The position numbers and the translations under genes were made by a program. This document shows, one piece after another, positions 12,832 to 37,209 of a stretch of 49,993 nucleotides of DNA. Origin of the DNA: an uncultured Clostridia bacterium (GTDB lineage: Bacteria; Bacillota; Clostridia; Oscillospirales; Acutalibacteraceae); the NCBI GenBank assembly GCA_946185345.1, contig CAMHJC010000005.1, positions 1-49,993 of the forward strand, in the 5' to 3' direction. Each line of letters starts with the position of its first letter. Within the stretch, counting starts at the first letter, position 1. The notes under the pieces are model-generated. The model made no database searches. It was given only the letters and a program-made list of their open reading frames with translations, and was not told the DNA's origin.

Positions 12832-12885
12832 GTAAGCATAAATCGGGGGTGAGTTGGTTTTAATCATTTTGTCATGTTAAGTCAA

Positions 12886-13063
12886 AAGCGCCTGAGCCTT
12901 TCTGCGTAATATCATTATGCTTCATTGTATACGTAATAAAAGGCTGACGAGGGTGGAAGTTTATCGAAACAATCGGCGGATGCTTCCCGGCTTCGCAGAG
13001 AAGCTGCATATCGGCAGACAAAGACTTCGGAAAACCGGAGAACAGAATTGCCGTTACTCTGTT
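12886..13063 (+). ncRNA. glmS ribozyme: glmS ribozyme (glucosamine-6-phosphate-activated)
   Basis: Characteristic core: AAGCGCCTGAGCCTTTCTGCG ... GGCTGACGAGGGTGGAAGTTTATCGAA ... TCGGCGGATGCTTCCCGGCT ... GACAAAGACTTCGG ... CAGAATTGCCGTTACTCTG; directly upstream of glmS. Predicted cleavage between A12887 and G12888. Confidence 0.97.
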
Positions 13064-13085
13064 AATCATTGGAGGTTAGTAATTT

Positions 13086-14897
13086 ATGTGCGGTATCGTA
13101 GGATACATAGGTGATAAAAATTCGACTGAGATACTTCTGGACGGCCTGAAAAAGCTGGAATACAGAGGTTATGACTCGGCCGGCGTCGCCGTCTTTGAGC
13201 ATGACAAGGTCAGTGTGATCAAGGCAAAGGGACGCATTAAAAATCTGGAGGATAAGATAGGCGAGGGTGTTCCGCAGGGCGTCTGCGGTATCGGTCACAC
13301 ACGCTGGGCCACTCACGGGGAACCTTCCGACGTCAACAGTCATCCTCACAGAAGCGGCAAGGTCACGCTGGTACACAACGGCATTATCGAGAATTATGCC
13401 GAACTGAAGGAAAAGATGAAGGCGGAAGGGCGTACTTTTCTCTCGGAAACCGACACAGAAGTGGCTGCGCAGCTCATCGACAAATATTACGACGGCGACC
13501 CGATCGACGCCATTTTTACGGCAATTGCCAGAATTCGCGGCTCCTACGCATTCGGCGTGCTGTTTGACGATTACCCGGAAAAGCTTTTTGCCATTCGCAA
13601 GGACAGTCCGCTGATAGTCGGCATAGGTGAAGGGGAAAACTTCATCGCTTCCGACATTCCGGCGATTCTCAGCAGAACCAATCATTATTACCTGCTCGAG
13701 GAGAATGAGCTTGCGGTTATCACGGCAGATTCCATCAGGATACTCGGAGCCGACAGACAGCCCATTGAAAAGGAAGTTTTTACCGCAACGTGGGACGTTT
13801 CGGCTGCCGAAAAAGGCGGATACGACCATTTCATGCTCAAGGAAATCAATGAACAGCCCAAGGTGCTTGCCGACACGATTCTTCCCCGTCTCAAAAACGG
13901 CGCGAAGGGCATCTTCGCAGAGGAAATGCCCGATATTTCCAAAATCAGACGGCTGCATGTCGTGGCCTGCGGAAGTGCGCTTCACGCAGGAATGGTCGGC
14001 AGACATATGATCGAGCGCATTGCCAGGGTTCCGGTTATTACCGAGGTCGCTTCGGAATTCAGATATTCCAACCTGCTCTTTGAGGAAGGCGACGCCGTGG
14101 TGGTTATTTCCCAGAGCGGCGAGACGGCCGACACGCTGGCCGCCCTTCGCATTGCCAAAAAGAGAGGAATACCGACCATCGCCATAGTCAATGTGGTTGG
14201 TTCCACGATTGCCCGTGAAGCGGACATCGTGCTTTATACATGGGCAGGACCTGAAATAGCCGTTGCCACTACCAAGGCCTACACCTGCCAGGTGGCGGTC
14301 ATGCTGATGATGGCGCTGCGCTTTGCCTGCGAGCGAGGCACCGTTTCGGATGCGGATCTGGAGCATTATTCCGATCTGCTCAGACAGATTCCGGACGTGG
14401 TGGCCGATGTCATCGGCAATGCGGATATCTATAAGGAAATGTCCCAGAGTTACAAGGATTGTGAGGATCTCTTCTTTATCGGCAGAGGATACGACTGTGC
14501 GCTCTGCTGGGAGGCCTCCATCAAGCTCAAGGAAATATCCTACATTCATTCCGAAGCCTACGCCGCCGGAGAACTCAAGCACGGCACGATTTCGCTCATT
14601 GAGCCGGGAATGCCCGTGGTGGCCATTGCCTCGGGCGATAAGCTCTTTGAAAAGACCGTGAGCAACGTCAAGGAAGTCAAGGCGAGAGGCGCCAGGGTGA
14701 TCCTTCTCTGCAAGAAGGGAGCAAGCGTTGACAGCACCATTTATGACCATCTGATCGAAGTGCCTGACGTGGACGAATTCATACGTCCCATAGCCGCTAT
14801 CGTTCCGCTTCAGATATTTGCCTATTATACCGCAGTAGCAAGAGGCTGCGATGTGGATAAGCCGAGAAATCTGGCCAAATCGGTGACGGTTGAGTAA
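13086..14897 (+). CDS. glmS: Glutamine--fructose-6-phosphate aminotransferase (isomerizing)
   Basis: 603 aa; MCGIVGYIGDKN N-terminal Cys amidotransferase; C-terminal SIS domains; KSVTVE C-terminus. Confidence 0.98.
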   Translation: MCGIVGYIGDKNSTEILLDGLKKLEYRGYDSAGVAVFEHDKVSVIKAKGRIKNLEDKIGEGVPQGVCGIGHTRWATHGEPSDVNSHPHRSGKVTLVHNGIIENYAELKEKMKAEGRTFLSETDTEVAAQLIDKYYDGDPIDAIFTAIARIRGSYAFGVLFDDYPEKLFAIRKDSPLIVGIGEGENFIASDIPAILSRTNHYYLLEENELAVITADSIRILGADRQPIEKEVFTATWDVSAAEKGGYDHFMLKEINEQPKVLADTILPRLKNGAKGIFAEEMPDISKIRRLHVVACGSALHAGMVGRHMIERIARVPVITEVASEFRYSNLLFEEGDAVVVISQSGETADTLAALRIAKKRGIPTIAIVNVVGSTIAREADIVLYTWAGPEIAVATTKAYTCQVAVMLMMALRFACERGTVSDADLEHYSDLLRQIPDVVADVIGNADIYKEMSQSYKDCEDLFFIGRGYDCALCWEASIKLKEISYIHSEAYAAGELKHGTISLIEPGMPVVAIASGDKLFEKTVSNVKEVKARGARVILLCKKGASVDSTIYDHLIEVPDVDEFIRPIAAIVPLQIFAYYTAVARGCDVDKPRNLAKSVTVE

Positions 14898-30809: not shown

Positions 30810-30847
30810 CCCCGATGCTTTTTCTTCCAAAAGGCATCGGGGTATTT
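30810..30847 (+). terminator. Intrinsic terminator after the carboxyltransferase operon
   Basis: ccccgatgctttt / aaaaggcatcgggg hairpin; T-containing tail. Confidence 0.75.
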
Positions 30848-31233: not shown

Positions 31234-31512
31234 ATGAAGCTGAAAAAAATCGAAAGCTATGAAGCGGGGTACGGCATCATCAAAAAGGCTGCGGCAGCCG
31301 CTTCGGCGGTAGCTCTTCTCGGAGGAATGACCGCCTGCCGTCATTCCTTGTCGGGTGATGTGGAATACAATCCCCAGGAATATGACGGTAATATGTCGGT
31401 GCAGGTGATTTCCGACTCTGACATTTCGTCAGATGAATACTGCTCCTCTGAAAATGAAATCTTCACCCTTGAAGGCGATGTGGCGTATCTTCCCGATGAC
31501 GGCCAAAACTGA
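31234..31512 (+). CDS. Candidate radical-SAM substrate peptide 1 (92 aa) with lipobox-like segment
   Basis: Strong SD (aaaggagg); KKIESYEAGY, KKAAAAASAVALLGGMTAC, then SLSGDVEYNP and TLEGDVAYLP. Confidence 0.75.
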   Translation: MKLKKIESYEAGYGIIKKAAAAASAVALLGGMTACRHSLSGDVEYNPQEYDGNMSVQVISDSDISSDEYCSSENEIFTLEGDVAYLPDDGQN

Positions 31513-31528
31513 TGCGGAGGAATATGCG

Positions 31529-31792
31529 GTGGAAAAGAAGAAAATACTGTCGTACAGCGATGGATATTCACAATCAGACATATTAAAGAAAATCACAGCG
31601 GCCACATCGGCCGTACTGCTCTGCGGCAGCCTTGCCGCCTGCCGTAAGGAAGAGGAGCCGCTCACGCTGATGGGGGAGGAGGAGTATCTTCCGGACGTGT
31701 CGGAAACGGATTTTTCCGCCCCTGACGAGACTCTTTCGCTGATGGGTGAAGAGGAATATTTCCCGCTGGGTGAAGATTCACCGGTTGACTGA
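31529..31792 (+). CDS. Candidate radical-SAM substrate peptide 2 (87 aa, GTG start) with lipobox
   Basis: gcggagg SD-like sequence; KKILSYSDGY, KKITAATSAVLLCGSLAAC, then TLMGEEEYLP and SLMGEEEYFP. Confidence 0.75.
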   Translation: MEKKKILSYSDGYSQSDILKKITAATSAVLLCGSLAACRKEEEPLTLMGEEEYLPDVSETDFSAPDETLSLMGEEEYFPLGEDSPVD

Positions 31793-31818
31793 CAGGCCAT
31801 TGAGCCTCGGAGAAAACA

Positions 31819-32874
31819 ATGAACATATCACTGATACTGACCAAGCAGTGCAATCTGCGATGCCGATACTGCTTTGAGACACACGAGAATGTCTTTATGA
31901 CCGAAGAAACCGCACTGAAAGCCATTGACATGGCCGTGCGGAATAATGACAAAAGCGTGGGAGTGTCTTTTTTCGGCGGAGAACCTCTGCTTTGCAAAGA
32001 TCTGATCTACAGATGCGTGGAATATTCCAAACGCTTTGACGGAGTGAAATTCAGCTGGAACATGACCACCAACGGACTGCTGCTCAACAGGGAATTCCTT
32101 GAATTTGCCCGTGAGAACAAAATTTTCATCGCCATGTCTCACGACGGACTGATGACACGCGCCAACCGCCTGTATTCGGACGGAAGGAACTGCCTTGAAA
32201 CACTCGACAGCAGGCTGAAACTGCTTCTGAAATATCAGCCGTCCGCCTTCATCATGGCGACAACAACGCCCGAAACTGCGGGAGACGTGGCCGAATCCAT
32301 GAAATATCTCTTCGAAAGGGGCGTCAGGCGGCTCAATCTCGCCATCGACGCACGACCGGAAGCCGGCTGGGACGAGCCCTCAATGGAAGTGCTTTCCTCA
32401 CAGCTGAAAATGGTCGCCGGCTACGTCTGTGATCAGTTCTGCAAAGGCAGAGACGTCTATTTCAATCCTTTTGAGGAAAAAATCCTTGCCATCACCAGGG
32501 ACAGAGCCTGTCACATCTGCAAGCTCGGCATGAGAAAGCCTTACATCGACTGGAACGGACTGATCTATCCCTGCATCCAGTTCGGCGATGTGGCGGACTA
32601 TGTCATGGGAAGTGTGCAAACCGGAATAGACGCCGGGCGGAGAGAATCCATCTACCGCAAAAGTCTGCAATCACCCGAATTCTGTGAAGGATGCGCACAC
32701 CGAAAGCGATGCGTCAACGACTGCGCCTGCATCAATTTCCAGCAATGCGGCGAAATGTCGCAGGTCAGCGGAGAGCAGTGCGCCTTCCAGCGGATGCTCA
32801 TAGAATGCGCAGACGAAATGGCCCGGGAAATGCTCGAAAAGGACGAGAAGCGCTTTTCCGCTAGATATCTGTAA
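31819..32874 (+). CDS. Radical SAM/SPASM peptide-modifying enzyme-like protein
   Basis: CNLRCRYC (CxxxCxxC) near the N-terminus, FFGGEPLL; C-terminal Cx12Gx4C ... CEGCAHRKRCVNDC (Cx2Cx5Cx3C) ... C SPASM pattern. Confidence 0.93.
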   Translation: MNISLILTKQCNLRCRYCFETHENVFMTEETALKAIDMAVRNNDKSVGVSFFGGEPLLCKDLIYRCVEYSKRFDGVKFSWNMTTNGLLLNREFLEFARENKIFIAMSHDGLMTRANRLYSDGRNCLETLDSRLKLLLKYQPSAFIMATTTPETAGDVAESMKYLFERGVRRLNLAIDARPEAGWDEPSMEVLSSQLKMVAGYVCDQFCKGRDVYFNPFEEKILAITRDRACHICKLGMRKPYIDWNGLIYPCIQFGDVADYVMGSVQTGIDAGRRESIYRKSLQSPEFCEGCAHRKRCVNDCACINFQQCGEMSQVSGEQCAFQRMLIECADEMAREMLEKDEKRFSARYL

Positions 32875-32991: not shown

Positions 32992-35058
32992 ATGAAAGCA
33001 GAGGAAAAACCAATTATAACAGAATCAAAGGCACAGTCATCGGTTAATGACAAAAAGACGTTTGCCATGGGAATGGTCCAGAGTCTTATTTTGCCGGTGG
33101 CTGTGCTTTATATGGAAATACTGGCCAAATTAAAAATCTTCGGTAATGTGTTTGACGATAAGATTCCGTATCTTTTGTTATTGTCTCCGGCAATGGGATT
33201 TCTGCTGAGCGCATTGTCAATGCTGCTTCCGGCGAAGGCGCGAAGGGTGTACCTGCGCATCGTGCTGGGAATACTCGGCGTCTGGTTTTCGTTTCATGTC
33301 ATATACCATCATAATTTTCACACTTTTTTCTCGTGGAACAATATGGGACAGGCTATGGACGTGACACAGTTCTGGCGTGAAGCTCTGACTGCCGCCGGCG
33401 GTGTGTGGTATATGATAGCGGCGTTTTTTTTGCCTCTGACCGTTCTGTGCGTTGCCGGCAAACGAATGATTCCTGACAGAATCAGACTGAATCTTCCATG
33501 TGCGGCGGTTTCTGCGGCTTTGTTTTTAGGGCTGTATCTTCCGGCGCTGACCGTGATCAACAGCTATCAGGGCATTACCGATCAATACACACCCTACTAT
33601 TATTACACTTACATCCAGAGCGATCTTGATCAGAGCTTTCACTATTACGGCATCGTGAATACGACCCGTCTGGATATCAAGCAGCTGATTTTCGGAGCGC
33701 CTGTGGAGACCATCGTCCTTGACGATTATTACGAGGAAGTGTCCGGCAGCGATACCGATCCGGACGGCGTGGAATACGGCTGGAACATGATGGATATTGA
33801 TTTTGACAAGGCGGAAAACGCCACCGGCGACAGTCAGCTCAAAAGCCTTGATGCCTATTTCAAAACGGTTCAGCCGACCAGAAAGAACCGGTACACCGGC
33901 ATATTCAAGGGCAAAAATCTGATATTTCTCACACTGGAAGGCTTTTCCGACAAGGTGATCGATCCGGAGTTTATGCCTGTGCTTTACAGAATGTCAACCG
34001 AGGGCTTTGTTTTCCGTAATTCCTATAATCCCATGTGGGGAGGAAGCACCGCAACCGGAGAATATGCCAATCTTACCGGCAATTTTTACCCCAACACCAA
34101 GTGCATGAGAATCAGTGCAAAGACCTATCAGCCCTTCGCAATGGGCAATCAGTTTAAAAAGCTGGGCTACAGGACGCTTGCCTATCACAATAATTCCTAC
34201 ACGTTTTACGGCCGTCAGGATTCACACCCGAATTTCGGCTATGAATATAAGGGCGTCCGCAACGGTCTGAAGCTGGCGGAGCTTTCCTGGCCGAATTCCG
34301 ACAGGGATATGGCCGACGCCACGCTGGATGAATTTGCCAATCTCTATTCGCCTTTTCATGTTTACTATATGACATTCAGCGGCCATGCCAATTACGGCTT
34401 TTCGGAAAACGCAATGGCAAGGAAGCACAAGAACGATATTCCCGAGAAATACAGGAGCTATCCGGAGGATCTCCGGGGGTATTACGCAAGCCAGTATGAG
34501 GTTGAGCTGATGCTCGAGGCGCTTGTAGACAGGCTTGAGCGGGAAGGCAAGCTGGAAAACACGGTATTCGCAATGGCGGCCGATCATTATCCTTACGGAC
34601 TGAGCGACAGATCGCTCTCCATCCTTTACGGACTTCCCAAGGATAATATCCGCAATAACGCTGAACTGTACCGCAACAGATTCATTCTGTGGAGCGCTTC
34701 AATGACAGAGCCTGTCGAGGTGGACACGCCCTGCTCCACCATAGATATCCTGCCTACTCTCTCCAATATGTTCGGTCTGGAATACGACTCCCGCCTTATG
34801 ATGGGAACGGATATCATGGCGGAAGGCAGCCATATGGCGATGCTGAAAGTCAACGGCTGGTCATGGGTCAGCGCTCAGGGTGAATACAGCGCCGGCGACG
34901 ATACATTCACTCCGGCGAAAAGCTGCACCCTTACCGATGAGGAACAGAGGGATTACGTAGCTCGCATGAAGAAAATAGTGAGAGCCAAGACGACTTATTC
35001 CAATCTGATTATTGAAAAGGATTATTACAGTCACATCTTTGAGTTTATCAGGCAATAG
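32992..35058 (+). CDS. LTA synthase-like membrane sulfatase, copy 1
   Basis: N-terminal TM helices; KGKNLIFLTLEGFSD, WGGSTATGEYANLTGNF, AADHYPYGL, STIDILPTLSNMFGLEYDSRLMMGTDI. Confidence 0.92.
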   Translation: MKAEEKPIITESKAQSSVNDKKTFAMGMVQSLILPVAVLYMEILAKLKIFGNVFDDKIPYLLLLSPAMGFLLSALSMLLPAKARRVYLRIVLGILGVWFSFHVIYHHNFHTFFSWNNMGQAMDVTQFWREALTAAGGVWYMIAAFFLPLTVLCVAGKRMIPDRIRLNLPCAAVSAALFLGLYLPALTVINSYQGITDQYTPYYYYTYIQSDLDQSFHYYGIVNTTRLDIKQLIFGAPVETIVLDDYYEEVSGSDTDPDGVEYGWNMMDIDFDKAENATGDSQLKSLDAYFKTVQPTRKNRYTGIFKGKNLIFLTLEGFSDKVIDPEFMPVLYRMSTEGFVFRNSYNPMWGGSTATGEYANLTGNFYPNTKCMRISAKTYQPFAMGNQFKKLGYRTLAYHNNSYTFYGRQDSHPNFGYEYKGVRNGLKLAELSWPNSDRDMADATLDEFANLYSPFHVYYMTFSGHANYGFSENAMARKHKNDIPEKYRSYPEDLRGYYASQYEVELMLEALVDRLEREGKLENTVFAMAADHYPYGLSDRSLSILYGLPKDNIRNNAELYRNRFILWSASMTEPVEVDTPCSTIDILPTLSNMFGLEYDSRLMMGTDIMAEGSHMAMLKVNGWSWVSAQGEYSAGDDTFTPAKSCTLTDEEQRDYVARMKKIVRAKTTYSNLIIEKDYYSHIFEFIRQ

Positions 35059-35115: not shown

Positions 35116-37209
35116 ATGATGGAGGAAAAGCTGAAAGAAATACTGGAAGCGGTCGACAGGAAAAAATATATCAAGGAACTCTGCGGATTACTGTATCTGC
35201 CCCTGTCGCTGCTTTATCTGGAAATACTATCCAAACTGAGAATATTCGGAAAAGCGATTGACGACAAATTTCAGTATCTGCTGTTTCTGTCGCTTGGTAT
35301 GGGCTTTTTGCTGAGCGTAGTTTCCATGCTTCTGCCAGGCAAGCCGCGCAGGATATTTTATAAAGTGGTGCTGAGTGTGCTGGCGGTCTGGTTTTCCTTC
35401 CATGTGAGCTATTACAACAACTTTCACACATTCTTCTCGTGGCAGACCTTAGGTCAGGCCAAGGACGTGACACAGTTCTGGCAGGAGGCAATTGTTGCCG
35501 CCGCGGGGGTATGGTATGTCATACTGGCGTCATTTGTGCCGCTGATCATTCTGTGCGCTCTGGGAAAGTATGTGTTTACGGATGAGCTTCCCGGGAATCC
35601 CGCCTATGCCGGAATTGCGTTTGCGGCGTTTATCGTCATGTATCTTCCCATTGTCGTTCATATCAATCAATTCAAATCCGATTCGGATGAATACACACCC
35701 TATTATTATTATACATACATACAGAACGATCTCGATACCAGCTTTCAGTATTACGGCATATTCAACACAACCCGTCTGGACATCAAGCAGCTGATTTTTG
35801 GCGCGCCTGTGGAGGAATTCATTATCGACGATAACAGCAATGACGATATCGTTATTCCTGATGAAAACAAAGACAAAGAGGAAGCACCCAAAGAGTACGG
35901 CTGGAACGTAATGGATATTGACTTTGACAAGGCGGCGGACTCCACCAGAAACAGCCAGCTGAAAGCCATGGACAAGTATTTCAAAACGGTTCAGCCTACC
36001 CGGAAGAACGAATACACAGGCATGTTCAAGGGCAAAAATCTGATATTTATCACGCTTGAGGGATTCTCCGACAGGATCATCGACCCTGAATTCACGCCTA
36101 CTCTCTACAAGATGGCAACCGAAGGCTTCGTATTCAAGAATTTTTACAATTCCGTCTGGGGAGGAAGTACCGCCAGCGGCGAATATTCCAACATGACGGG
36201 CAATTTCTATACCACTGCCAACTGCCTCAAACTGAGCGGAGATAAATATGAACCTCTTGTTCTGGGAAATCAGTTCAAGAAAATCGGTTACAAGACGGTT
36301 GCCTATCACAACAACTCCTATACCTATTACGGACGTAACAAATCACACCCGAACTTCGGCTATCAATGGAAGGCCATCGGAAACGGCCTGAAGCTGAAGA
36401 GCAACTGCTGGCCAAGGTCGGACAAGGAAATGGCGGAGGCCACCGTGGGGGATTATCTGGGACTGGATCAGCCGTTCCATGCGTATTACATGAGCGTCAG
36501 CGGACACGCCAATTATACTTTTTCGGGCAATATGATGTCGACACGTCATCAGAGCGAGCTTACCGAAAAATACAACAATTGTCCTGAAGACGTCAGAGCG
36601 TTTGCCGCCTGTCAGCTTGAAGTGGAGCTGATGCTCAAGGCGCTGGTGGATCAACTGGATGAAGCGGGCGAGCTTGAGGATACGGTATTTGCGATGGCCG
36701 CCGACCATTATCCCTATGCGTTGAGCGATGAAGGTCTTTCGAAGCTGTACGGTCTGCCAAAAGGCGGAATCCGCAGTAATTTCAACCTCTACCGCAACGG
36801 ATTCATTCTGTGGAGCGCCTCAATGAAGGAGCCGGTGGTTGTAGAAAAGCCATGTTCGACCATAGATATTCTGCCGACGCTTTCCAATCTCTTTGAACTG
36901 GAATACGACTCGAGAATTCTCATTGGCAGCGATATCATGGCGGAAGGCGATCACTTTGCGCTGCTTAAAGTGGCGGGATGGTCGTGGATCAGCACGCAGG
37001 GAGAATACAGAGGAGCTTCCCAGACGTTCACTCCCAGCGAAAACTGCACCCTTTCCGAAAAAGAGCAGTCGGAATACGTCAAGAAAATCAACAAAGTGGT
37101 CAGAGCCAAAACCACCTATTCCAAGCAGATTCTCGACAAGGATTATTACAAGCACATATTTAAGTTTGTCAAGCAAGATACTTCCGGCGACACTGAGCCC
37201 CAGGAGTAA
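35116..37209 (+). CDS. LTA synthase-like membrane sulfatase, copy 2
   Basis: Highly similar to the upstream ORF over its length; GKNLIFITLEGFSD, WGGSTASGEYSNMTGNF, AADHYPYAL. Confidence 0.92.
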   Translation: MMEEKLKEILEAVDRKKYIKELCGLLYLPLSLLYLEILSKLRIFGKAIDDKFQYLLFLSLGMGFLLSVVSMLLPGKPRRIFYKVVLSVLAVWFSFHVSYYNNFHTFFSWQTLGQAKDVTQFWQEAIVAAAGVWYVILASFVPLIILCALGKYVFTDELPGNPAYAGIAFAAFIVMYLPIVVHINQFKSDSDEYTPYYYYTYIQNDLDTSFQYYGIFNTTRLDIKQLIFGAPVEEFIIDDNSNDDIVIPDENKDKEEAPKEYGWNVMDIDFDKAADSTRNSQLKAMDKYFKTVQPTRKNEYTGMFKGKNLIFITLEGFSDRIIDPEFTPTLYKMATEGFVFKNFYNSVWGGSTASGEYSNMTGNFYTTANCLKLSGDKYEPLVLGNQFKKIGYKTVAYHNNSYTYYGRNKSHPNFGYQWKAIGNGLKLKSNCWPRSDKEMAEATVGDYLGLDQPFHAYYMSVSGHANYTFSGNMMSTRHQSELTEKYNNCPEDVRAFAACQLEVELMLKALVDQLDEAGELEDTVFAMAADHYPYALSDEGLSKLYGLPKGGIRSNFNLYRNGFILWSASMKEPVVVEKPCSTIDILPTLSNLFELEYDSRILIGSDIMAEGDHFALLKVAGWSWISTQGEYRGASQTFTPSENCTLSEKEQSEYVKKINKVVRAKTTYSKQILDKDYYKHIFKFVKQDTSGDTEPQE

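Follow-up and report, generated by a model that had tools for sequence, protein, structure and literature searches.

The window, by which we mean the whole stretch of 49,993 nucleotides of uncultured Clostridia DNA analysed here, contains three consecutive open reading frames on the forward (+) strand. These are precursor 1 (31234..31512), a 92-aa prolipoprotein with an ATG start; precursor 2 (31529..31792), an 87-aa prolipoprotein with a GTG start; and a radical SAM/SPASM maturase of 351 aa (31819..32874) with a match to Pfam PF04055. The ORF coordinates and the gaps of 16 nt (between the precursors) and 26 nt (before the enzyme) agree with the arrangement described in an earlier note on this DNA, and each ORF has a ribosome site on its 5' side, AAAGGAGG for precursor 1 and GGAGG for precursor 2. 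A terminator-like hairpin (30810..30842, + strand, a consensus match only) lies 3' of an oadA-like gene; this putative terminator would set the precursor-enzyme operon apart from the upstream genes. Downstream of the enzyme gene are two tandem genes for LtaS-like membrane sulfatase-fold proteins (32992-35058 and 35116-37209), and other genomes of the genus have similar genes 3' of the enzyme. A functional tie to the flanking LtaS-like or decarboxylase genes was rejected, as these neighbours are not retained beside the enzyme in the loci that we read outside the genus. Elsewhere in the window, a glmS ribozyme (12876-13065, 86 bits) precedes a probable glmS gene at 13086.

Both precursors carry at residues 4-13 the KKIxSYxxGY stretch previously singled out, as KKIESYEAGY in precursor 1 (31243..31272, + strand; Y9, G12 and Y13 are invariant in 17 precursors) and, by comparison of the precursor sequences, as KKILSYSDGY in precursor 2 (31538..31567, + strand). 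Behind this leader both display the features of SPII lipoproteins, namely a positive n-region, a hydrophobic segment and a lipobox with an invariant cysteine past that segment: Cys35 in GGMTAC for precursor 1 (31336..31338, + strand) and Cys38 in GSLAAC for precursor 2 (31640..31642, + strand). Signal peptide and lipobox are assigned by sequence pattern only, and the comparison of precursors upholds the placing of a lipoprotein signal between leader and core. Across all precursors, small and large, the leader consensus is KxYxx(x)[GP]xY, followed by the signal peptide with its lipobox. Two points count against the explanation that we favour below: some relatives have a weak lipobox (GTAC, TTGC), and in two genomes of the genus a further ORF bears the leader but lacks a signal peptide. 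These ORFs (L007:5756-6004 and L009:5781-5981) are third small ORFs between precursor 2 and the enzyme; they retain the leader (KIDTYNAGY, RIEEYKAGY), contain FYGDIIYL or end in ICGNMSC, and may encode a soluble substrate or a regulator.

Beyond the lipobox, the small precursors (66-192 aa) share Gly-centred repeats with the consensus [LIVY]-x-G-[DENG]-x-x-[YVI]. Motif analysis places SLSGDVEYNP (31345..31374), YDGNMSV (31381..31401) and TLEGDVAYLP (31465..31494, whose Gly81 is invariant among the precursors compared) in precursor 1, and TLMGEEEYLP (31664..31693) and SLMGEEEYFP (31736..31765) in precursor 2, all on the + strand. The four ten-residue motifs of the earlier note are thus all present, but its list missed YDGNMSV. 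In the window genus we count 68 occurrences of the motif where shuffled sequences give 8.4 (at most 18 in 1000 shuffles), and in genus g329 25 where they give 2.9 (at most 9), an approximately eightfold enrichment in both genera analysed; the repeats are conserved rather than lost. They recur in separate genera, as LDGDVIV and LAGEVDV in g329 and also in G324, and those of G001 (VIEGAVPYSQP, LMGDVPYSQP, LEGETAYSEP) bear a striking likeness to the repeats of the window. Tyrosine is absent from 3 of 36 small precursors and cysteine past the lipobox from 12, precursor 2 being without one, as is every precursor found in G302 and G324. Glycine is absent from none; among the three residues compared, it alone occurs in every core. 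The suggestion that the repeats form a modified core at Tyr, Gly or Glu therefore stands only in part: the centre conserved across genera is Gly, flanked at -2 and +4 by hydrophobic residues, and neither Tyr nor Glu is obligatory. A Tyr- or Glu-centred core was rejected, since some precursors do without Tyr whereas all have Gly.

The enzyme starts only 10 residues before its radical SAM cluster motif, C11xxxC15xxC18 (31849..31872, + strand; invariant in 39 sequences), which leaves no room for an RRE domain and bears out what had been read from its N-terminus. The predicted SPASM pattern is likewise there: alignment of the cysteines gives a region from C234 to C321 (32518..32781, + strand) with two auxiliary cluster sites, comprising C234-G247-C252, C289/C292/C298/C302 and C321. 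The enzyme reaches no listed NCBIfam cut-off. Its best match is PapB (NF047865), at 173.5 bits against a cut-off of 340 (161-226 for distant members), and with the model for six-Cys SCIFF systems, TIGR03974, it scores 112 of 425 bits. In the tree these enzymes stand apart from the SCIFF-type maturases, several deep branches being long and unresolved. A structure search finds the closest folds in CteB, anSME and ChlB with its leader, all three peptide-modifying.

The PapB match (the highest in NCBIfam), the nearest solved fold being that of the thioether synthase CteB, and the presence of Cys near acidic residues in peptide 1 and most large lipoproteins could all be taken to mean that a PapB/SCIFF-type maturase performs ranthipeptide or sactipeptide chemistry here, joining Cys to Asp/Glu or C-alpha carbons, for instance in CSSENE of peptide 1. 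We think this quite improbable. The frequent absence of a core cysteine argues against thioether chemistry, and the conserved repeats have no Cys at all; ranthipeptides have a Cys-Xn-Asp/Glu core (PMC9413430), and a third of the small precursors offer no such cysteine. Nor do the precursors have the Cys-rich core that serves as thioether donor in sactipeptides. The PapB score is not only far under its cut-off but also under that of SCIFF-type maturases on the same profile (about 270-300 bits). The sole PapB above the cut-off, a protein of 447 aa with an N-terminal extension, adjoins a short Cys-rich peptide gene and ABC transporter genes, whereas the window enzyme has no RRE. In sum, PapB ranthipeptide maturases and CteB share with our system, besides the best profile and fold matches, a SPASM radical SAM enzyme adjoining a leader-bearing precursor; here, however, the RRE and the dedicated exporter are lacking, core Cys is not required by the sequences and the precursor is a prolipoprotein.

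A different reaction would be epimerisation, in which abstraction of the C-alpha hydrogen at the hydrophobic residues flanking Gly (Val, Ile, Tyr) would yield D-residues in a lipid-anchored peptide, as with EpeE. The hydrophobic positions at -2 and +4 fit this, and epipeptide epimerases act on Val and Ile (PMC8326336). We nevertheless hold it to be unlikely, because the best-conserved residue is Gly, which is not epimerisable, and because the structure of EpeE matches far less well (TMq 0.37, E 4.8e-6) than that of CteB or anSME.

Rumen and other uncultured Clostridia have relatives at 60-74% identity. Within the genus sample, the enzyme and at least one precursor are present in 18 of 18 genomes, and a precursor lies just upstream of the enzyme in 17. 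The exception, G306, has the precursor behind oadA on one contig (L061) and the enzyme directly behind argJ on another (L131), owing either to rearrangement or to faulty assembly. When 300 family genomes were searched with the precursor profile (E<=1e-6), it matched exactly the four that have a close enzyme. Further matches of that profile in the window's own genome were set aside as ordinary lipoproteins, matching in the signal region only. Purifying selection acts on both precursors, with pN/pS values of 0.23-0.45 in peptide 1 and 0.15-0.56 in peptide 2, and on the enzyme (0.13-0.31). Together with the enrichment of the Gly motif and the presence of both partners throughout the genus, this selection confirms the gene arrangement of the window as far from chance.

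A search of family, order, class and phylum samples with the enzyme profile brought in 25 more genomes with distant enzymes (31-41% identity), spread over several families and orders and beyond the class. The other matches near E=1e-60 are SCIFF-type maturases, as judged by their N-terminal sequences, and one unrelated enzyme (G1140). A leader-bearing lipoprotein gene adjoins the distant enzyme in 22 of the 25 genomes, by inspection of ORFs by eye with the sought features known beforehand. In two of the remaining genomes (G096 and G643) the contig begins inside the lipoprotein region, and in G693 the precursor region is frameshifted; the latter (L119:4386-5925) reads as a leader-like NIKPVKDKKVNEYS, a transmembrane segment that shows no obvious lipobox, and then GGEVMLSGAVEVV. 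Of the 64 matches that a strict leader-plus-lipobox pattern gave in 1704 ORFs, 50 adjoin the enzyme on its strand (at least 2 of these 50 being chance matches inside LtaS-like genes) and none adjoins a control SCIFF-type maturase. The co-occurrence of peptides and enzyme that had been proposed thus survives at both distances. As the neighbours vary from genus to genus while precursor and enzyme stay paired, the two form the minimal unit.

Recognition of the leader by the enzyme, likewise proposed before, gains support from a natural fusion. In the relative L008, precursor and enzyme are in frame with one TGA between them, and this stop was read through for an AlphaFold model. Leader residues 1-10 have a pLDDT of 90, the enzyme is mostly above 90 and residues 18-100 are below 50, so that the leader is the sole ordered part of the precursor, in an alignment of which just 8 of 39 rows contain the precursor. 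A large lipoprotein modelled without the enzyme has a pLDDT of about 50-55 in its leader region, although as a different protein it is an imperfect control. A 10-residue coil at pLDDT 90 implies, within the limits of such a model, that the leader docks on the RRE-less enzyme.

Small acidic lipoproteins are common, and G306 retains the enzyme although it is separated from the precursor; one might consequently suppose that the small ORFs are ordinary lipoproteins, that the enzyme acts elsewhere and that their co-location has some other cause. This we find highly improbable. Even where enzyme identity is down to 31-41%, in several families and orders and amid changing neighbours, the leader, lipobox and Gly motifs are still present next to the enzyme; the leader is the only part of the precursor that the model orders, and G306 has kept both genes.

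No Pfam, NCBIfam or PHROG family matches the precursors above threshold, consistent with the view that their family is new, and our literature search found no radical SAM system with lipobox-bearing precursors. Contrary to the earlier small-peptide framing, the system extends past small peptides: most of the distant enzymes pair with lipoproteins of 200-320 aa that have the same leader and lipobox, after which come a Gly-rich stretch, often HGxGxGSxGC, and then a separate domain. For this domain we found no known relatives in Pfam or NCBIfam, and no fold by PDB sequence search or by Foldseek (model pLDDT 73). One large lipoprotein (L083) bears both the repeats of the small type and the domain of the large type. 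Despite the common leader, the small repeat pattern is absent from most large lipoproteins, which counts against assuming a single chemistry for both kinds of precursor.

The architecture of the locus, its conservation, the co-occurrence of its parts, the lack of an RRE and the absence of a required core Cys can be read directly from the sequences, and the general hallmarks of a RiPP locus are there: a precursor gene adjoining a modifying enzyme, with a leader that is conserved and a core that varies or is repeated. We consider it likely that the locus is a RiPP-like system in minimal form, which produces modified lipoproteins through Cys-independent radical chemistry and housekeeping export. 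The SPASM enzyme would bind the KxYxx(x)[GP]xY leader within the n-region of the Sec/SPII signal peptide, and we infer that it then acts on the Gly-centred repeats in the C-terminal part, which is acidic and disordered, modifying them in the cytosol, before export, at the prolipoprotein stage. The likeliest target would be the invariant Gly or its flanking residues, with a crosslink or another C-H oxidation formed inside each repeat. The product would be exported by Sec, its lipobox Cys lipidated by Lgt, and signal and leader removed by LspA, leaving a short, membrane-anchored, modified lipopeptide with a presumed function on the cell surface. A signal peptide, with a leader inside it, can be removed through Sec, Lgt and LspA without a dedicated protease, so these housekeeping proteins would stand in for exporter and leader peptidase. 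This route would explain the missing ABC exporter and protease and is the simplest way to account for a leader that comes before a lipobox; their absence, remarked on in the earlier note, holds but is no longer an oddity.

The nearest named precedent is TIGR04133 (rSAM_w_lipo), which by its name is a lipoprotein-associated radical SAM family; like our system it ties a radical SAM/SPASM enzyme to a lipoprotein, but the window enzyme scores 48 bits against its cut-off of 425, and the window precursors match no NCBIfam model. The anSMEs are also SPASM enzymes without an RRE and have a similar fold (TMt ~0.75), and they can act in the cytosol on proteins destined for secretion; they need a Cys/Ser sulfatase motif and no leader, whereas the window system has Gly repeats and a leader. 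The cyclophane synthase ChlB (PDB 9gm3), a SPASM-type fold co-crystallised with its precursor leader region (TMt ~0.75), is only distantly related in sequence, and there is no evidence for a cyclophane motif in the window system.

We see even chances that these loci represent a new RiPP class, lipoprotein-RiPPs, in which the leader recognised by a SPASM enzyme is part of the n-region of a lipoprotein signal peptide and the enzyme introduces a Gly-centred modification of a new, Cys-independent kind into repeats or into an N-terminal stretch of larger lipoproteins, with Sec/Lgt/LspA acting as exporter and leader peptidase and membrane-anchored products occurring across Clostridia. Mining for RiPPs, which usually goes by RRE domains, Cys-rich cores and ABC exporters, would overlook such systems. 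If the proposal is true, radical peptide modification and lipoprotein biogenesis, usually treated apart, become joined; covalently altered surface lipoproteins, full-size ones included, are predicted in rumen and other anaerobic Clostridia; and a SPASM reaction not needing Cys is indicated.

Two other radical SAM proteins of the window's own genome (L149 and L150, on contigs C88 and C36) score 283 and 264 bits with TIGR04133 (cut-off 425), with no clear small lipoprotein partner within the short flanks read. One enzyme subclade (L085:4111-5220 and L110:4356-5465) has lost exactly C234, C252, C302 and C304 while keeping C289, C292, C298 and C321, and its lipoproteins have HGG stretches without the Cys present in most other large lipoproteins. 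By analogy with anSME, the lost cysteines would be the AuxI ligands and the retained ones those of AuxII, and the co-loss suggests that C304 is an AuxI ligand in this enzyme family.
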